Assembly: GCF_001281265.1 (NCBI RefSeq)
Contig: NZ_JXDB01000007.1
Location: forward strand, 62,001-126,000
Origin: Apilactobacillus kunkeei DSM 12361 = ATCC 700308
GTDB taxonomy: Bacteria; Bacillota; Bacilli; Lactobacillales; Lactobacillaceae
Reading direction: 5' to 3'
Length of the DNA: 64,000 nt
A program made the position numbers and the translations under genes. Within the stretch, counting starts at the first letter, position 1. Each line of letters begins with the position of its first letter. Positions 19,589-26,801 of the stretch are shown one piece after another. The notes beneath the pieces were generated by a model. It was given only the letters and a program-made list of their open reading frames with translations. It had not been told where the DNA came from and ran no database searches.

Positions 19589-19618
19589 AAAAAAGCATTC
19601 CAAAATGGAATGCTTTTT
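19589..19618. terminator. Bidirectional terminator between the orphan gene and carB
   Basis: AAAAAGCATTCCA pairs perfectly with TGGAATGCTTTTT around a 4-nt loop. The right arm overlaps the carB stop codon. Confidence 0.9.
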
Positions 19619-22118
19619 ATTTGTCATCGACTAATCTAAATTTGATTTTAGCCCCTACTTCTTGGGAACTATTAGCGTGATCAACTTTGACATTTAATTG
19701 TTTGAATGGGAAGGTTGCTTGCATATGAGTAACTCTATTAGACATATCAGGCATATTCTTCATTAATTCGTTAATATCCAATCTCTTAGTGTAGAAACGG
19801 ACAAGTGCCCTAACCCAATTAATTCCGGTTGCTCTGCTTAAGAATATTGTTTCAGTTAAACGTAGTGGTCTAATACCAACATACTCTGATTCCCCCTTCT
19901 TATTTTGATTAAACAAGATTTGGACTAATCCAATCCAATTGGAACTTTGAATATGGGCTTTAGATTCTTCAATATCTCTTTGTAATGCTTCATCACCTAA
20001 GACATATGGCGTCTCGTATGCAGTTACATAATCTAAGTCACTCTTATTATTACTAATTAACTTTTCTGTTGAGATAAAGTAACTTTCATCTTGAGTCACA
20101 AAGAAGTTTAGTGCATAGGTAACATCCTTAGGTAAAACAACCCCTGTTTCTTGATCAGGTGGCAATACTTGAACGTTTAAACCAGTGTATTTCTTTAATT
20201 GTTTTAGTAGGAAATGTCTGTTTCCTGGAATGAATACTCTAACTGGTTTTTCCAGTTCAATAATATTTAGAATTGCCCCTAATTGAATTGGTTCAATATA
20301 TTGCTTATCACTAATTTGTGGACTTAGTGATAATGCATTTGGATTGTTATTCATGACAATTGTCTTGTAACCGATTCTGTGTAGTTGGATTAACATTTCA
20401 GCTGTGTAGTAATCAGCAGCTGTATTAGGACCTAGCTTGTTTCCACCACGACCGATTACTAGAGCGGTCTTTTCTGATTCTTGACTAGATTCGTTTTCAA
20501 TTTCATAACTACTGTAGAAAGAACGAATGTTTTGATCAAATTCACCAGCTGAAGGTTCAATTGCCTTATATGTTGGGTATTCACCAGCAGCGTGATATAA
20601 CTCTCTAACTTTTTCGATTGGTTGATGCCATGTTTCAGCCATCATACCATCACCAAAGCCATGATCATGAGCAACTTCAATGGTTCTTAGTTTCATTGGT
20701 TCTTTAATGATTAGTTCTTCAACATCCAATAATTCCTTTAGCTTGTAGAAATAGAATTGGTTAATCTTGGTTAATTCCTCTAATTCATCTACTTGGTAAC
20801 CACGTCTTAGCGCTTCAATTAATACTAATAAACGGTCTGACTTAGGGTGAATCAATTGACTGATTAATTCATCACTACTGATTTCGTACATGCTTGGTAG
20901 AACATCACGAGGTGAGAATTGAGAACTACGCAAAGCTTTTAACATTGCTTCTTCAACAGTTCTACCTACCCCAATGGTTGAACCAACAGACTTCATTGTA
21001 GTATTTAGATGTTGATTAGCTTCTGGAACATTATCAAATGGCCATACTGGCATCTTAATTACCACGTGGTCTAATGTTGGTTCCATGATGGGTGTTAAAC
21101 GGTGATAGTTAGCGTGTAATTGAATCTCTGGTAATGAATTACCTAGTAAAAGATTTGTACATACATAAACTAATGGATAACCTGTAGATCTCGCAGCTAG
21201 TGCTGAACTACTGTTAATCAACGGATTAATTTTTGTGATGTAGTAATTACTACCATCGTTAGGATCTAGGGCAAATTGAATATGACATAAACCAACGATA
21301 TTCAATAAGTCCATCATCTTAAACGTTGCAGTTCTTAGACTTTGGTACTCAATATCGCCCAGTGTTTGAACTGGAGAAATTACGATTGAATCACCAGAAT
21401 GGACACCAACAGCATCAATATTTTCCAAACCACTAATTAGAATCTTGGTATTGGTTTGATCTCTAACCGCAACAGTTTCAATTTGTTTGTAACCAACGAT
21501 GCTCTTTTCAATGATACATACGCTGTCGTCTTTAAATTCGTCTTCTAACATGTCAGAAAGTTCTTCAGCATTATTACAGATGATTCTTTCGGTACTTTCC
21601 TTATGGCTAACTTTTTTGATGTTAACTGGGAAACCAATTTCTCGAACGACTTCAAATGCTTCGGATTCACTTCTAACTATTTTAGAAGGTACTGCTGGTT
21701 CATCGATACTATTAATAGCAATCTTCATCTTATCTGGATTATTAATAACCTTTAAAGACTCTTTAGAGATCCCTAAAACACGGACTCCTAAATCACTTAG
21801 AATTCCTTGGTTTAATAGTTCCTGTGTAACGTGAATTGCTCTTAATCCCCCAGCGATTGGAATAATTGCATCAGGAGATTCCTTCTTAATTACATCAAGA
21901 ACATTTTTTAAATTAATTTCTTTTATAAATACATTAGCCGGTTGAACTTCTGAAAGTGTAAGTGAAAAAGGATTATTATCAATCACTAGAACTTGAACGC
22001 CATTTTTCTTTAAGGCTGTCATCATTTGAAATGCAGCAGCATCAAGCTCAGTTTCATTACCAATTTTAGAAGGTCCACCACCTAAAATTAATACCTTCTT
22101 GATTTTATTATCTATCAT
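19617..22118 (-). CDS. carB: Degenerate carbamoyl-phosphate synthase large subunit (CarB-like)
   Basis: An 833-aa CarB homologue; functional CarB is about 1060 aa. The order is a pre-ATP-grasp and ATP-grasp domain (about 1-395), oligomerisation domain (about 395-545), second pre-ATP-grasp, a strongly shortened second ATP-grasp (about 680-790) and no C-terminal regulatory domain. Key sites are altered: the Gly-rich loop expected near 170 reads VSHKESTE, and the metal/ATP motif IEVNPR reads TKINPL (Lys296 for Glu, Leu300 for Arg). The second copy reads YVGIRPLR. It is the last gene of the ebsA-fhs-lspA-rluD-pyrR-carA-carB operon, 3 bp after carA. Catalysis looks unlikely, yet the frame is intact. 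Confidence 0.85.
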   Translation of the reverse strand: MIDNKIKKVLILGGGPSKIGNETELDAAAFQMMTALKKNGVQVLVIDNNPFSLTLSEVQPANVFIKEINLKNVLDVIKKESPDAIIPIAGGLRAIHVTQELLNQGILSDLGVRVLGISKESLKVINNPDKMKIAINSIDEPAVPSKIVRSESEAFEVVREIGFPVNIKKVSHKESTERIICNNAEELSDMLEDEFKDDSVCIIEKSIVGYKQIETVAVRDQTNTKILISGLENIDAVGVHSGDSIVISPVQTLGDIEYQSLRTATFKMMDLLNIVGLCHIQFALDPNDGSNYYITKINPLINSSSALAARSTGYPLVYVCTNLLLGNSLPEIQLHANYHRLTPIMEPTLDHVVIKMPVWPFDNVPEANQHLNTTMKSVGSTIGVGRTVEEAMLKALRSSQFSPRDVLPSMYEISSDELISQLIHPKSDRLLVLIEALRRGYQVDELEELTKINQFYFYKLKELLDVEELIIKEPMKLRTIEVAHDHGFGDGMMAETWHQPIEKVRELYHAAGEYPTYKAIEPSAGEFDQNIRSFYSSYEIENESSQESEKTALVIGRGGNKLGPNTAADYYTAEMLIQLHRIGYKTIVMNNNPNALSLSPQISDKQYIEPIQLGAILNIIELEKPVRVFIPGNRHFLLKQLKKYTGLNVQVLPPDQETGVVLPKDVTYALNFFVTQDESYFISTEKLISNNKSDLDYVTAYETPYVLGDEALQRDIEESKAHIQSSNWIGLVQILFNQNKKGESEYVGIRPLRLTETIFLSRATGINWVRALVRFYTKRLDINELMKNMPDMSNRVTHMQATFPFKQLNVKVDHANSSQEVGAKIKFRLVDDK

Positions 22119-22121
22119 TAG

Positions 22122-23195
22122 TTATCTCCTTTGTGAGCTAACGTTTTCTAGAAATTCTTCAAACAAGTCTGCACTGTCTTGTGGACCAGGTCCACCATCT
22201 GGTGAGAATTGAACAGAAAAAGCAGGATAATCACGATGTCTGATACCTTGGACAGTACCATTAACTAAATCAACATATGTAATCAATAATTGATCATGGA
22301 TGATTGATTTAGGATCAACAGCGTATCCTTCGCTTTGTGATGCATAGATGATTTGATTAGTAATAACTTGTCTAATTGGATGATTACTACCATGATGTTC
22401 ACCGTCTAATTTGTAAACATTGGCATCATTGGCTAATGCAAACAATTCATGTCCTAATCCCATCGCAAACATTGGGATTTCTTTTTGGACCTCTCTAATC
22501 ATCTGTAAAACAGAATCTGGTAAATCTCTTGGAGAACCAGGTCCAGTTGATAAAACAACACCATCAGGGTCTAAATCAAAGATTTCCTGACTAGTTGTTT
22601 CAAATGGCATCACAATAACGTTACAATCAAGGTCAGCCAATTTACGTAAAATACCGTATTTAAGACCGAAATCAATCAATACAATATTGTATCCATCACC
22701 AGTATTTGGAAATGGCGCCTTGGTAGATACTTGATTTACTTGTTGATTAGTAAGAACCGTTGCATGAAGTTGATCAAAAGCATGTTCATCATCCATATCA
22801 ACAATACTTGCCTTCATTGTTTGTTTTCGATTTAAGCGACGTGTTAATTCTCTAGTATCGATTCCCGCAATACCAGGAATGTTATGTTGCTTTAGGAATA
22901 AATCTAAGTTTAAGTTTCCTAATCTATTGGTAGAAATATTGGAGTATTCTTTAACAACTACCCCTTTTGAATTTGTCACAATTGCTTCAAAGCTTTTGTG
23001 GTTAATTCCTGTATTACCAATAGATGGCTGTGTAAACACAATGATTTGATTATGGTAAATTTGATTTGTTATAACTTCTTGATAGCCTAACATATTAGAA
23101 TTTACAATAATTTCTCCAGTTGTGGTTGCTTCAGCTCCGAAGGCTTTACCTTTATATGAAGTTCCATCTTCTAATATTAAATATCTAGTGGTCAT
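22122..23195 (-). CDS. carA: Degenerate carbamoyl-phosphate synthase small subunit (CarA-like glutaminase)
   Basis: A 357-aa protein of normal CarA length and layout. It has an N-terminal CPSase_sm domain (MLGYQEVITN, GIDTRELTR) and a class I glutamine amidotransferase domain from about 169. The nucleophile elbow GICLGHQ reads AMGLGHE, so Cys is replaced by Gly246. The HPE dyad reads SPD (Ser331 and Asp333). All three triad residues are therefore substituted, while the folding motifs (LSTGPGSP, SVQF, GPGPQDS) are kept. Glutamine hydrolysis should be absent. Some CPSases use free ammonia, but the partner CarB is degenerate too. Confidence 0.88.
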   Translation of the reverse strand: MTTRYLILEDGTSYKGKAFGAEATTTGEIIVNSNMLGYQEVITNQIYHNQIIVFTQPSIGNTGINHKSFEAIVTNSKGVVVKEYSNISTNRLGNLNLDLFLKQHNIPGIAGIDTRELTRRLNRKQTMKASIVDMDDEHAFDQLHATVLTNQQVNQVSTKAPFPNTGDGYNIVLIDFGLKYGILRKLADLDCNVIVMPFETTSQEIFDLDPDGVVLSTGPGSPRDLPDSVLQMIREVQKEIPMFAMGLGHELFALANDANVYKLDGEHHGSNHPIRQVITNQIIYASQSEGYAVDPKSIIHDQLLITYVDLVNGTVQGIRHRDYPAFSVQFSPDGGPGPQDSADLFEEFLENVSSQRR

Positions 23196-23767: not shown

Positions 23768-24685
23768 CTATTTTTGATTGTATTTATTTCTTAATTTAGT
23801 AATTGTTTGTTCAAAAATTTCTGGCAATGGTGTTTCAAAAATCATTTGTTCGTTTGTCTTTGGGTGAACAAAGCCTAATTTCTTAGCATGTAAAAATTGA
23901 CCATTACCCTTTAAAGTGTTCTTGGGTCCGTATAGAGGATCTCCAGCAAGTGGATGACCAATATACTTCATATGAACTCTAATTTGGTGAGTACGACCTG
24001 TTTCTAATACACATGAAACAAGTGTATATTCTCCACCGAAGCGTTCTAAAACCTTAAAATGAGTAACGGCGTTCTTTCCATCATCTACGATTGCCTGTTT
24101 TTTACGGTCTTTTTTAGATCTACCAATTGGGGCGTTAATAACGCCACTATTTTCTTTGATATTTCCATGTACTAATGCAATATATTCACGAATGTTTGAT
24201 TTATCCTTTAATTGTTTGGACAAAGATTCATGAGCATAATTATTCTTAGCAACCATTAATAGACCAGATGTATCTTTATCAATTCTATGAACGATTCCTG
24301 GTCTATAGGTTCCATTAATTGTTGAAAGTGGTGAATGATAAAGTAATGCATTCACTAATGTATGGTCAGGATGACCTGGAGAAGGATGAACAACCATTCC
24401 TTGCGGCTTATTGACGACAATTACATCATCATCCTCATATACAATATCAATGTTGATGTTTTCCGGTTCCACGTTCATTGTTTCTGGTTCAGGAATGATT
24501 ACCTGAATTACCTCACCGTCTTTAACATCGTATTTTGCCTTTTTCTTTTGTCCATCTACCAAGACTAATCCATCTTCAATCAAACTTTTGGCTCTTGAAC
24601 GACTTAAATCATCAACGTTATCAGTTAATGATTTATCTAGTCGAACATGCCCCTTTGTGACTGTATAAGTTACTGTATCTTTAAT
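23768..24685 (-). CDS. rluD: RluD-type 23S rRNA pseudouridine synthase, probable AUU start
   Basis: A 305-aa protein with an N-terminal S4 RNA-binding domain ([20 protein letters not shown] onward), then the catalytic domain with HRIDKDTSG (Asp136) and GRTHQIRVH. The conserved S4 region has no ATG, GTG or TTG before codon 35. The frame opens after TAG at the lspA end and its only plausible initiator is ATT at 24685-24683. That codon overlaps the lspA stop and follows GGTGA by five bases. Starting at TTG 24583 would delete most of the S4 domain. Homologues include B. subtilis YlyB, also located between lspA and pyrR. Confidence 0.9.
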
Positions 24686-25133
24686 CTAAATCACCATCTC
24701 TTAATATTGCAAAAAATAACAAGATAATTCCAAATGTAATGCAGATATCTGCGAAGTTAAACACTGGGAAATTAATAAAATCAACTTGGAACATATCAAC
24801 TACATAACCTTGTAAGAAACGGTTAATGAAGTTACCTAAAATTCCAGCTAATAAGATTGTTGTACTTGTTAAATAAAGCTTTCTACCCTCTAATTTTATC
24901 ATAAAATAAACAATCGCTACGACTGCTACTAAGGTAATAATGGAAAATAACCATTGTTGGCCTTCCAAGATACTCCAAGCAGCACCACTATTATGCAGAT
25001 TAGTAATTGATAATACTCCTGGGATGATTGTTGTACTTGATGTTTCTGAAATGTTTGCAGAAATCCAAATTTTGATTGCTTGATCAATTCCAACAAGAGC
25101 ACATAGGCTAATTAAAATATATACAATTGGCAT
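24681..25133 (-). CDS. lspA: Lipoprotein signal peptidase II
   Basis: A 150-aa membrane aspartyl protease that cleaves prolipoproteins. It has four hydrophobic helices. The catalytic aspartates are Asp113 (GYVVDMFQVDF) and Asp129 (FNFADICITFG), with NSGAAWSI and GNFINR as further signatures. It is followed by rluD, whose proposed start overlaps its stop codon. A substrate, the lipoprotein nuclease, is encoded in this window. Confidence 0.96.
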   Translation of the reverse strand: MPIVYILISLCALVGIDQAIKIWISANISETSSTTIIPGVLSITNLHNSGAAWSILEGQQWLFSIITLVAVVAIVYFMIKLEGRKLYLTSTTILLAGILGNFINRFLQGYVVDMFQVDFINFPVFNFADICITFGIILLFFAILRDGDLD

Positions 25134-25145
25134 TGAAAAACTCCT

Positions 25146-26801
25146 TTAGAATAGCCCTGTAATCTTACCATCATTATCAATATCCATGTCTAAAGCTGCT
25201 GGATGTGATGGTAAACCAGGCATTGTTAGAATCTTACCAGTTAATACAACGATGAAACCGGCACCTAGTTTAGGTTGGATGTCAGAAACATTAATTGAGA
25301 AGTCAACTGGTGCTCCTAACTCTTTAGCATTATCAGTGAATGAGTATTGTGTCTTAGCGACACAGATTGGTAATTTGTCCCAACCATTTTTAACTAGTTT
25401 CTTTAATTGTGTCTTAGCTTTATTACTTAATACAACACCATTTCCACCATAAATTTTAGTAACGATAGCATTTAACTTGTCCATAAATTCATCATCGTTG
25501 TTGTATAGCGGTTTAAATTCTTGATTGTTGTCACATACATCAACTAATTCTTCAGCTAATTCAGTTGCACCTGCTCCACCATTTTCCCATACAGTTGTAT
25601 TGAATGGTTTTACACCTTGTTCTTTGATGTAATCGTTTAATGCGTTAATTTCTTTTTCAGTATCGCTGGTAAATTCATTTACAGCAACTACAACTGGTTT
25701 GTTGTATTGCTTCATGTTAGCAATGTGTCTACCTAAGTTCTTAGCACCCTTTAGCAATGCACCTACGTTTTCTTGATCTAAGTCGTTCTTGTTAACTCCA
25801 CCATTTAGCTTTAATGCTCTAACAGTAGCAACAATAACAATCGCATCTGGACGTTTTCCTAACTTTTCAGATGTAATGTCTAGGAACTTTTCTCCACCTA
25901 AATCTGCACCGAAACCAGCTTCGGTAATTGCGTAATCCGCATGTTGAATGGCTGCTTTAGTAGCTAAAATACTGTTACAACCATGAGCGATATTAGCAAA
26001 AGGGCCACCATGAATGAATGCTGGAGTGTGTTCTAGTGTTTGAACTAAGTTTGGCTTGATTGCATCTTTTAATAGTAATGCTAATGCACCAGTAACACCC
26101 AAGTCATTAACAGTAACTGGTTGTCTATCGTAGTTGTAACCAATTAGGATTTTACCTAATTTTTCTTTTAAGTCGTTTAAATCTTCACTCAAACATAAAA
26201 CTGCCATGATTTCACTTGCGACAGTAATGTCAAAACCATCTTCACGAGGGACACCAGATGTACGTCCACCCAATCCAACGATTACGTTTCTTAATTCTCG
26301 GTCGTTAATGTCAACGACTCTCTTCCAGGTAATTGTTCTAGGATCAATGTTTAACTTGTTACCATGATGAATGTGATTATCAATTAGTGCTGATAATGTG
26401 TCATGTGCTTCAGTAATAGCAGGAAAGTCACCTGTAAAGAAAAGGTTAATATCTTCCATTGGTGCTACTTGAGCGTATCCACCACCAGTTGCACCACCTT
26501 TAATTCCCATAACAGGTCCAAGTGATGGTTCTCTTAGCGCAATTGCTACAGACTTATTAATTCTGTGGAATGCGTCACCTAAACCAATGGTTAAAGTAGT
26601 TTTACCTTCACCAGCAGCAGTTGGATTAATTGATGTTACTAAAATCAGTTTACCGTTTTTTGAACCGGAAAATGGTAGGTTGATTTTCGCTTTATATTTA
26701 CCATAAGGATCCATTTGATCGTCACTTATATTTAAACTTGATGCAATTTCGCTAATGTTTTTTAACTCAGCTGATTGTGAAATTTCAATATCTGTTTTCA
26801 T
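25146..26801 (-). CDS. fhs: Formate-tetrahydrofolate ligase
   Basis: A 551-aa enzyme forming 10-formyl-THF from formate, THF and ATP for purine and formyl-Met synthesis. The P-loop is [14 protein letters not shown] (60-73), with GGAAGGGYAQ-like [13 protein letters not shown] and [14 protein letters not shown] as family signatures. AGGAGATG lies nine bases before the ATG. It heads most of the leftward operon after ebsA and is 12 bp upstream of lspA. Together with the THF-controlled folT it points to reliance on folate uptake. Confidence 0.97.

Follow-up and report, generated by a model that had tools for sequence, protein, structure and literature searches.

Carbamoyl phosphate synthase (CPS) of Escherichia coli consists of the subunits CarA and CarB (PDB 1bxr and 1a9x) encoded by a two-gene operon. 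In a 64,000-nucleotide stretch (the window) of the 1.52-Mb genome of Apilactobacillus kunkeei DSM 12361 (NZ_JXDB01000007.1, positions 62,001 to 126,000), we analyzed a gene pair of the same layout, designated pCarA and pCarB. The products are collinear with the E. coli small subunit, the first ATP-grasp domain, the oligomerisation domain, and part of the second ATP-grasp domain, but they lack the glutaminase triad, key residues of the ATP sites, the site 2 lid, and the allosteric domain. Judging from its descent from CPS, the loss of catalytic motifs, and purifying selection, the pair qualifies as a CPS-derived pseudoenzyme. Mammalian CPS I also keeps a dead glutaminase-like domain as a structure, in which Ser294 replaces the catalytic Cys (PMC4655335). 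However, both phosphorylation domains of CPS I work and free ammonia is used, whereas the synthase of the window pair is dead too and neither of its ATP-grasp sites is intact.

Counterparts are also found in other Lactobacillaceae (L, G, and g hereafter denote loci, genomes, and genera). The pyrAa-pyrAb genes of L135, L136, L138, L139, L143, and L144 occupy the same place after rluD-pyrR, and those of L143 and L144 belong to the active sequences that lie nearest to the dead pair on trees. Unlike the window pair, these six keep the Cys, His, and Asp of CarA and have a CarB of approximately 1060 residues, with intact sites in the three that were read (L135, L138, and L143). PyrR2 of Lactiplantibacillus plantarum (lp_1782; PMC7911632) resembles the PyrR of the window in being located outside the pyr operon. 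A literature search gave, among the matches listed, no account of a pseudo-CPS in lactobacilli.

Catalytic sites of pCarA and pCarB

The Cys-His-Glu triad of class I glutaminases (Cys269, His353, and Glu355 in E. coli CarA) is replaced by Gly246, Ser331, and Asp333 in pCarA, in line with the initial annotation, which had described an inactive-looking CarA partner. Gln273 is replaced by Glu250. Residue counts in homologues refer to 49 rows of a first homologue set, or to 41 after removal of near-copies. In window-type CarA, Cys269 is Gly in 49/49 rows, His353 is lost in 49/49, and Glu355 is Asp in 46/49. Despite the lost triad, pCarA scores above the curated cut-offs of TIGR01368 (350 against 307) and NF009475 (414 against 221). 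A change of Cys to Gly is nearly, but not always, found in dead CarA; L140 (G033, g33) retains Cys. The His and Glu of this CarA are changed to Leu and Asn, and both sites of its CarB are broken, although that CarB still scores over the family cut-off. The motif HAFDQL was rejected as a hallmark of dead CarA, as it is present in 5 of 24 Cys-bearing CarAs and in L141 and is missing in 3 of the 52 main rows.

The shortened CarB homologue of 833 residues is a real open reading frame (minus strand, 22118..19617), and the plus-strand frame is full of stops. Its CarB homology spans residues 3–630, and it scores below both curated models (TIGR01369, 533 bits with a cut-off of 1027; NF003671, 510 with a cut-off of 599). 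Alignment with E. coli CarB agrees with the earlier statement that the Glu and Arg of IEVNPR are Lys296 and Leu300 (E299 and R303 in E. coli; TKINPL in pCarB) and that the Gly-rich loop, in whose stead HKESTERI is found, is gone. Further site 1 changes are R129P and E215Q (E. coli numbering), whereas G241, H243, Q285, and N301 are retained. E208K is uninformative because the active CarBs of the same genome also lack Glu there. Of the site 1 ligands of active CarAB, R129, the Gly-rich loop, E299, and R303 are thus all missing. In the 49 window-type rows, E299 is Lys or Arg in all, R303 is lost in all, and R129 is lost in 48; mostly retained are H243 (45), E215 (40), Q285 (36), and R306 (33).

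At the second site, the initial annotation was right about the regulatory domain but overstated the loss of the ATP-grasp domain. The regions corresponding to approximately residues 655–765 (lid subdomain) and approximately residues 937–1073 (allosteric domain) of E. coli CarB are absent; the aligned part stops near the equivalent of residue 936, and family-model searches showed no allosteric domain. The C-terminal part of the second ATP-grasp domain is retained in a degenerate form (hhalign to active CarBs, probability 95.9, E 5e-9), and a profile search gave a match to E. coli CarB 753–877 (E 1.8e-10), while Pfam gave no match for the second ATP-grasp core in the window copy. The site 2 residues E841, N843, and R845 lie in a degenerate motif.

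Some replacements are themselves conserved, and the altered pockets (with Arg in position 179 and Lys in position 299 of CarB site 1 and Glu in position 273 of CarA) might belong to a new enzyme or ligand-binding protein with another substrate. In the homologues, G179 is Arg in 48/49 rows, E299 is Lys or Arg in 49/49, Q273 is Glu in 39/41, and G352 is Phe in 41/41. The mean share of the top residue is 0.83 in the glutamine-pocket columns compared with 0.72 overall, for residue lists of this and the ATP pocket that were not computed from a structure. However, no catalytic triad, full set of metal ligands, or Gly-rich loop is left, and site 1 columns 175, 176, and 301 are highly variable, and we consider this explanation rather improbable.

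Residual partial CPS activity, such as ammonia-dependent synthesis or bicarbonate-dependent ATPase, has a very small chance of being correct for the pair. A diverged relative, L148 (G021, g22), keeps 12 of the 13 examined site 1 residues, and the thirteenth (208) varies in active enzymes too; in the window-type members, by contrast, both ATP sites are broken and the site 2 lid is gone. In L148, a dead CarA is accompanied by a CarB of 1054 residues with a destroyed site 2, and this CarB is a possible bicarbonate-dependent ATPase intermediate.

Conservation and origin of the pair

The pair was found in eight further records, seven named Apilactobacillus and one metagenome-assembled genome named "uncultured Lactobacillus sp.", with pCarB identities of 86–99%; one record ends at a contig edge. 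The closest named records are A. kunkeei LMbo, A. waqarii, and A. nanyangensis (each 99% over pCarB), and one record of Fructilactobacillus sanfranciscensis also holds the pair. Misassembly, which had been named as a finding that would overturn the earlier claim, is excluded by the eight records. These records and the dN/dS ratios together rule out chance and a pseudogene as well. The ratios were 0.010–0.038 for pCarA and 0.015–0.078 for pCarB, similar to those of PyrR and RluD, as obtained from four pairs with dS of approximately 1.3 or less (the other six of ten were set aside for larger or saturated dS in one of both genes).

In eight genomes with both a dead and an active copy, the mean identity of dead CarA was 62.5% compared with 60.1% for active CarA, and the dead copy had the higher identity in 16 of 28 pairs. 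When G001 is left out (its active copy forms a long branch), the values become 61.3% and 63.0%. For CarB in all eight genomes, the values were 40.6% (dead) and 67.5% (active), and the dead copy was higher in 0 of 28 pairs. Conservation of dead CarA is therefore close to that of active CarA, and dead CarB falls far behind its active counterpart, indicating that the small subunit is the constrained part.

A decaying relic without function would be consistent with the fast evolution of pCarB and with one broken copy, the split pCarB frame of Limosilactobacillus fermentum DR9 in that assembly. Its probability is close to negligible, and it is refuted for the window-type family as a whole by open CarA frames in 30 genera, dN/dS far below 1, and the conservation of dead CarA. 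In the DR9 assembly (L244 7085-9588, CP033372.1), the two pCarB frames have 139 and 691 residues. The 760-kb "plasmid" that carries it also bears lspA and rluD, and it resembles a chromosome; on the opposite strand, the next gene encodes a carbonic anhydrase. A carbonic anhydrase partner, prompted by this neighbor, was rejected after a motif scan of the 57 dead-CPS loci in the first tree set, which gave no beta-type match; the single alpha-type match fell on L141's own CarB frame.

When used alone, the C-terminal part of pCarB has matches in 145 of 397 Lactobacillaceae genomes, nearly all in frames of approximately 820–906 residues. The pCarA profile finds CarA-like genes in 394 of the 397, and because its scores part dead from active CarA only roughly, residues were read in fetched loci. 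An adjacent pair follows rluD in 48 of the first 49 loci fetched. The remaining one, L086 (G294), was rejected as a broken copy because it is a weak off-target match (E 2.6e-5); G294 has another match in an 833-residue frame. Among 40 sampled genera (g32, g34, and g36 lie outside the residue reading), dead CarA was read in 30, namely 18 of window type and 12 diverged (g4, g9, g10, g11, g15, g18, g22, g23, g27, g35, g37, and g40). In 29 of these 30 genera it lies downstream of rluD, either immediately or with pyrR, and in some genera uraA, in between; around the dead pair of g28 (L137), no rluD was found. In g29, G029 has two CarBs that pass the cut-off, and by score it has no dead-type pair. 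The best score in 246 genomes of the order outside the family (G397–G642) was 1.2e-161, no better than that of the weakest window-type genus, g26, and 19 of the 20 CarAs read there have GICLGHQ, the other being the f2 case described below. The pair is a conserved family and not one odd gene. The family, together with purifying selection and the two other CarA-CarB pairs of the A. kunkeei genome (both with CarBs over the cut-off), backs the initial annotation in calling the pair a pseudo-CPS.

The same place is occupied by an active-type CarA (Cys and His kept) in six genera, g12, g13, g25, g30, g31, and g33, with PyrB between CarA and pyrR. The order is rluD-pyrR-pyrP-pyrB-pyrC-pyrAa-pyrAb at the active-CarA loci of g12, g30, g31, and the f2 genus g77 (gene names mostly by eye; the frame listing of g31 began inside pyrB, itself a frame of 323 residues). 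Intermediate loci have the order pyrR-uraA-pCarA-pCarB in g11, g15, g22, g23, and g40 and uraA-pCarA-pCarB in g27, where the uracil permease family was tested for two of the six; the window-type order is pyrR-pCarA-pCarB. In the tree, the window-type clade (52 rows) has a support of 100/100 and groups with four active CarAs (98/90; 96/96 in a second tree), two of which are at the post-rluD-pyrR place. As six genera carry an active-looking pyr operon at this position, the dead pair most plausibly represents what is left of the old pyr operon CPS, still in its old place.

A dead CarA (GTGLGHQ or ATGLGHQ) is also present in another family, f2, in the genus g49 (L258–L260), with CarBs of 1063–1066 residues in which both sites are broken. 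There, pyrC is still beside the dead CarAB, and pyrB too in L258. Each of these three genomes has one CarA only at a profile E of 1e-100 or better, and yet it is dead. A single origin that includes one f2 row was rejected (approximately unbiased test, p 0.006). A single origin inside Lactobacillaceae was not rejected (p 0.154) in a test that dropped the Cys and Gln273 columns and, in place of three further intended columns, their neighbors.

Possible functions

In a panel of 80 genomes, a dead CPS is present in 72, comprising 60 of window type (a class set by CarB score and length, with residues checked in part only) and 12 diverged. Of the 60, 26 have no CarB that exceeds the curated cut-off, and 18 of these 26 lack PyrB as well. 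In G249 (L252, g14), one of the 26, the other CPS has an otherwise active-like CarB that is split between frames of 675 and 347 residues. Over all 72 genomes, 30 lack an active CarB and 21 of them PyrB as well (G033 set apart). The CarB cut-off is generous, as the CarBs of L141, L140, and L258 pass it despite broken sites. By its motifs the pair is not a CPS, and because 26 of the 60 genomes keep it without a CarB over the cut-off, neither is it merely a helper of one. A decoy or regulatory subunit acting on an active CPS in mixed complexes is accordingly very unlikely and was rejected for the family, even though 34 of the 60, including A. kunkeei, have a CarB over the cut-off. Deletion of the window pair need not yield a simple auxotrophy, because the genome has two other CPSs, and because relatives that lack PyrB or a cut-off-passing CarB still keep the dead pair.

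The dead CPS probably does a new, non-catalytic job. We tentatively propose that, when another CPS took over synthesis or synthesis disappeared, the pyr operon CPS stayed in place and is now a regulatory pseudoenzyme of pyrimidine (uracil) supply, which seems quite possible but somewhat short of probable. pCarA and pCarB would form a heterodimer in which the conserved dead glutaminase subunit serves as the contact or ligand-sensing part and pCarB as a faster-evolving scaffold, and the target of the pair would be PyrR or something encoded by the PyrR regulon. A regulatory role is suggested by what surrounds the pair, namely pyrR, in some genera the gene of a uracil permease, and in some genomes a preceding PyrR RNA site. 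PyrR was found in all 60 window-type panel genomes, usually once; in g29, it was found in 0 of 5 genomes tested. PyrR RNA sites (RF00515, searched with stricter filters by which weak sites are lost) occur in 72 of the 80 genomes. In A. kunkeei they precede a uracil permease, pyrF-pyrE, and the pyrB operon; in PyrB-less relatives, the genes behind them include those of permeases and of uracil phosphoribosyltransferase (most names by eye). Such a site lies just before the dead-CPS operon in G010, G014, G021, G022, G027, G040, and G044, and six of these operons contain a uracil permease. In L204 and L212 (g14), a PyrR RNA site precedes an ABC substrate-binding protein and ATPase, of phosphonate type by eye.

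Several observations weigh against this proposal. UMP binds to the allosteric domain of CPS in E. coli, and this domain is lost from pCarB. PyrR is near-universal in the family (78 of 80 panel genomes and 58 of 65 in a further set), and little can be read from its co-occurrence. No PyrR was found in G017 (g18, 87% complete), which has a dead CPS, or in three g37 genomes (G242, G299, and G330), which may also hold the dead pair. In g6 and g3, pyrR is elsewhere in the genome and the dead pair still follows rluD. Only 7 of the 72 dead-CPS panel genomes, A. kunkeei not among them, showed a PyrR RNA site directly ahead of the operon in a search whose filters miss weak sites.

A function outside pyrimidine metabolism, for example with RluD or the ribosome, would leave the adjacency to pyrR to ancestry only; we regard it as unlikely but not remote. 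Where the locus lacks pyrR (g6, g3, g18, and g37), the dead pair immediately follows rluD, and it persists in genomes that have lost PyrB and every CarB above the cut-off. The post-rluD place is, however, inherited, since pyr operons with active CarA in six genera sit there too; the co-operonic genes of the intermediates are pyrimidine genes, and no rluD was found around the pair of g28.

For comparison with the regulatory proposal, the second PyrR of L. plantarum is of interest. PyrR2 is reported to answer to inorganic carbon (PMC3582564); the work of Arsene-Ploetze 2006 and Bringel 2008 on it is cited in PMC3582564 and PMC5712122. The pyrR..pyrAa-pyrAb operon is at lp_2704-2700 (PMC7645587). 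Genomes of g38 have two PyrR genes, one before pCarA-pCarB and the other in an operon pyrR..pyrAa-pyrAb; in G331, the PyrR of the dead-CPS operon is 64.9% identical to the other. With two PyrR genes and a second operon as in lp_2704-2700, g38 is probably Lactiplantibacillus, and L. plantarum PyrR2 probably sits in the dead-CPS operon. A literature search on PyrR2 gave, among the matches listed, no mention of an adjoining dead CPS. In a different arrangement, L156 (G037, g37) has an active CarA-CarB between two pyrR genes, one upstream and one directly after CarB.

Replacement of pyrR2 in L. plantarum reportedly made the strain require high CO2. The former bicarbonate enzyme might be an inorganic-carbon sensor that reports the bicarbonate level to PyrR; the reported response of PyrR2 to inorganic carbon and the location of the second PyrR of g38 in exactly the dead-CPS operon would agree with this. 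However, R303, which we take to be the equivalent of the bicarbonate-binding Arg of biotin carboxylase, is lost in every row, which argues against a simply kept bicarbonate site. The pair is also retained where neither a CarB over the cut-off nor PyrB was found, and we consider this explanation quite improbable. A broader version, in which the dead CPS acts as sensor or transducer within a regulatory complex of PyrR and pseudo-CPS and PyrR responds to a signal other than UMP, appears doubtful but not as strained. The complex would have arisen at least twice in Lactobacillales from the pyr operon CPS, and the signal could be inorganic carbon or carbamoyl phosphate supply in L. plantarum and uracil supply in PyrB-less species. 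If so, a biosynthetic enzyme would have become the regulator of its own former operon with its place unchanged.

Whichever explanation applies to this widespread two-subunit pseudo-CPS, it annotates as a working CPS; pCarA passes the curated cut-offs, and this subunit is so named in CP033372.1. Because it looks like a working CPS to annotation, metabolic models could credit many lactobacilli with a carbamoyl phosphate synthesis that they lack. Its in-place origin with surviving intermediates makes it a good system for studying evolution from enzyme to regulator. It also brings two questions within reach of experiment, namely the source of the inorganic-carbon response of the second L. plantarum PyrR and a possible part of the genes behind pyrR2 in the published pyrR2 phenotype.

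Features of the locus

The genes are arranged on the minus strand in the order fhs-lspA-rluD-pyrR-pCarA-pCarB, with a terminator-like stem behind. The gaps are 11 bases between rluD and pyrR, 33 between pyrR and pCarA, and 3 between pCarA and pCarB.

Table 1. Positions of genes and motifs in the window
Feature	Position	Strand	Remark
pCarB, pseudo-carbamoyl-phosphate synthase large subunit, 833 residues	19617..22118	-	
TKINPL motif in ATP-grasp site 1, residues 295–300 (IEVNPR in active CarB)	21219..21236	-	E299K, R303L
Degenerate second ATP-grasp core, approximately residues 641–833	19620..20198	-	lid subdomain and allosteric domain missing
pCarA, pseudo small subunit, 357 residues	22122..23195	-	triad C-H-E replaced by G246-S331-D333
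Gly246 codon at the place of catalytic Cys269 (E. coli numbering)	22458..22460	-	
pyrR, sole PyrR found in the A. kunkeei genome	23229..23756	-	NF003548, 255 bits, above the equivalog cut-off of 218
rluD, RluA-family pseudouridine synthase	23768..24583	-	listed start TTG; name from annotated homologue in CP033372.1
lspA, signal peptidase II	24681..25133	-	conserved upstream neighbor
fhs-like gene, presumably formate-tetrahydrofolate ligase	25146..26801	-	upstream neighbor in many relatives
Palindromic stem, A/T-rich flanks	19590..19618	-	listed on + by the scan

The palindromic stem is likely the terminator of the pyrR-pCarA-pCarB operon, and the true start of rluD is probably further upstream than the listed TTG. 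At many dead-CPS loci, the downstream neighbor is a convergent frame resembling RqcH/NFACT (one tested).

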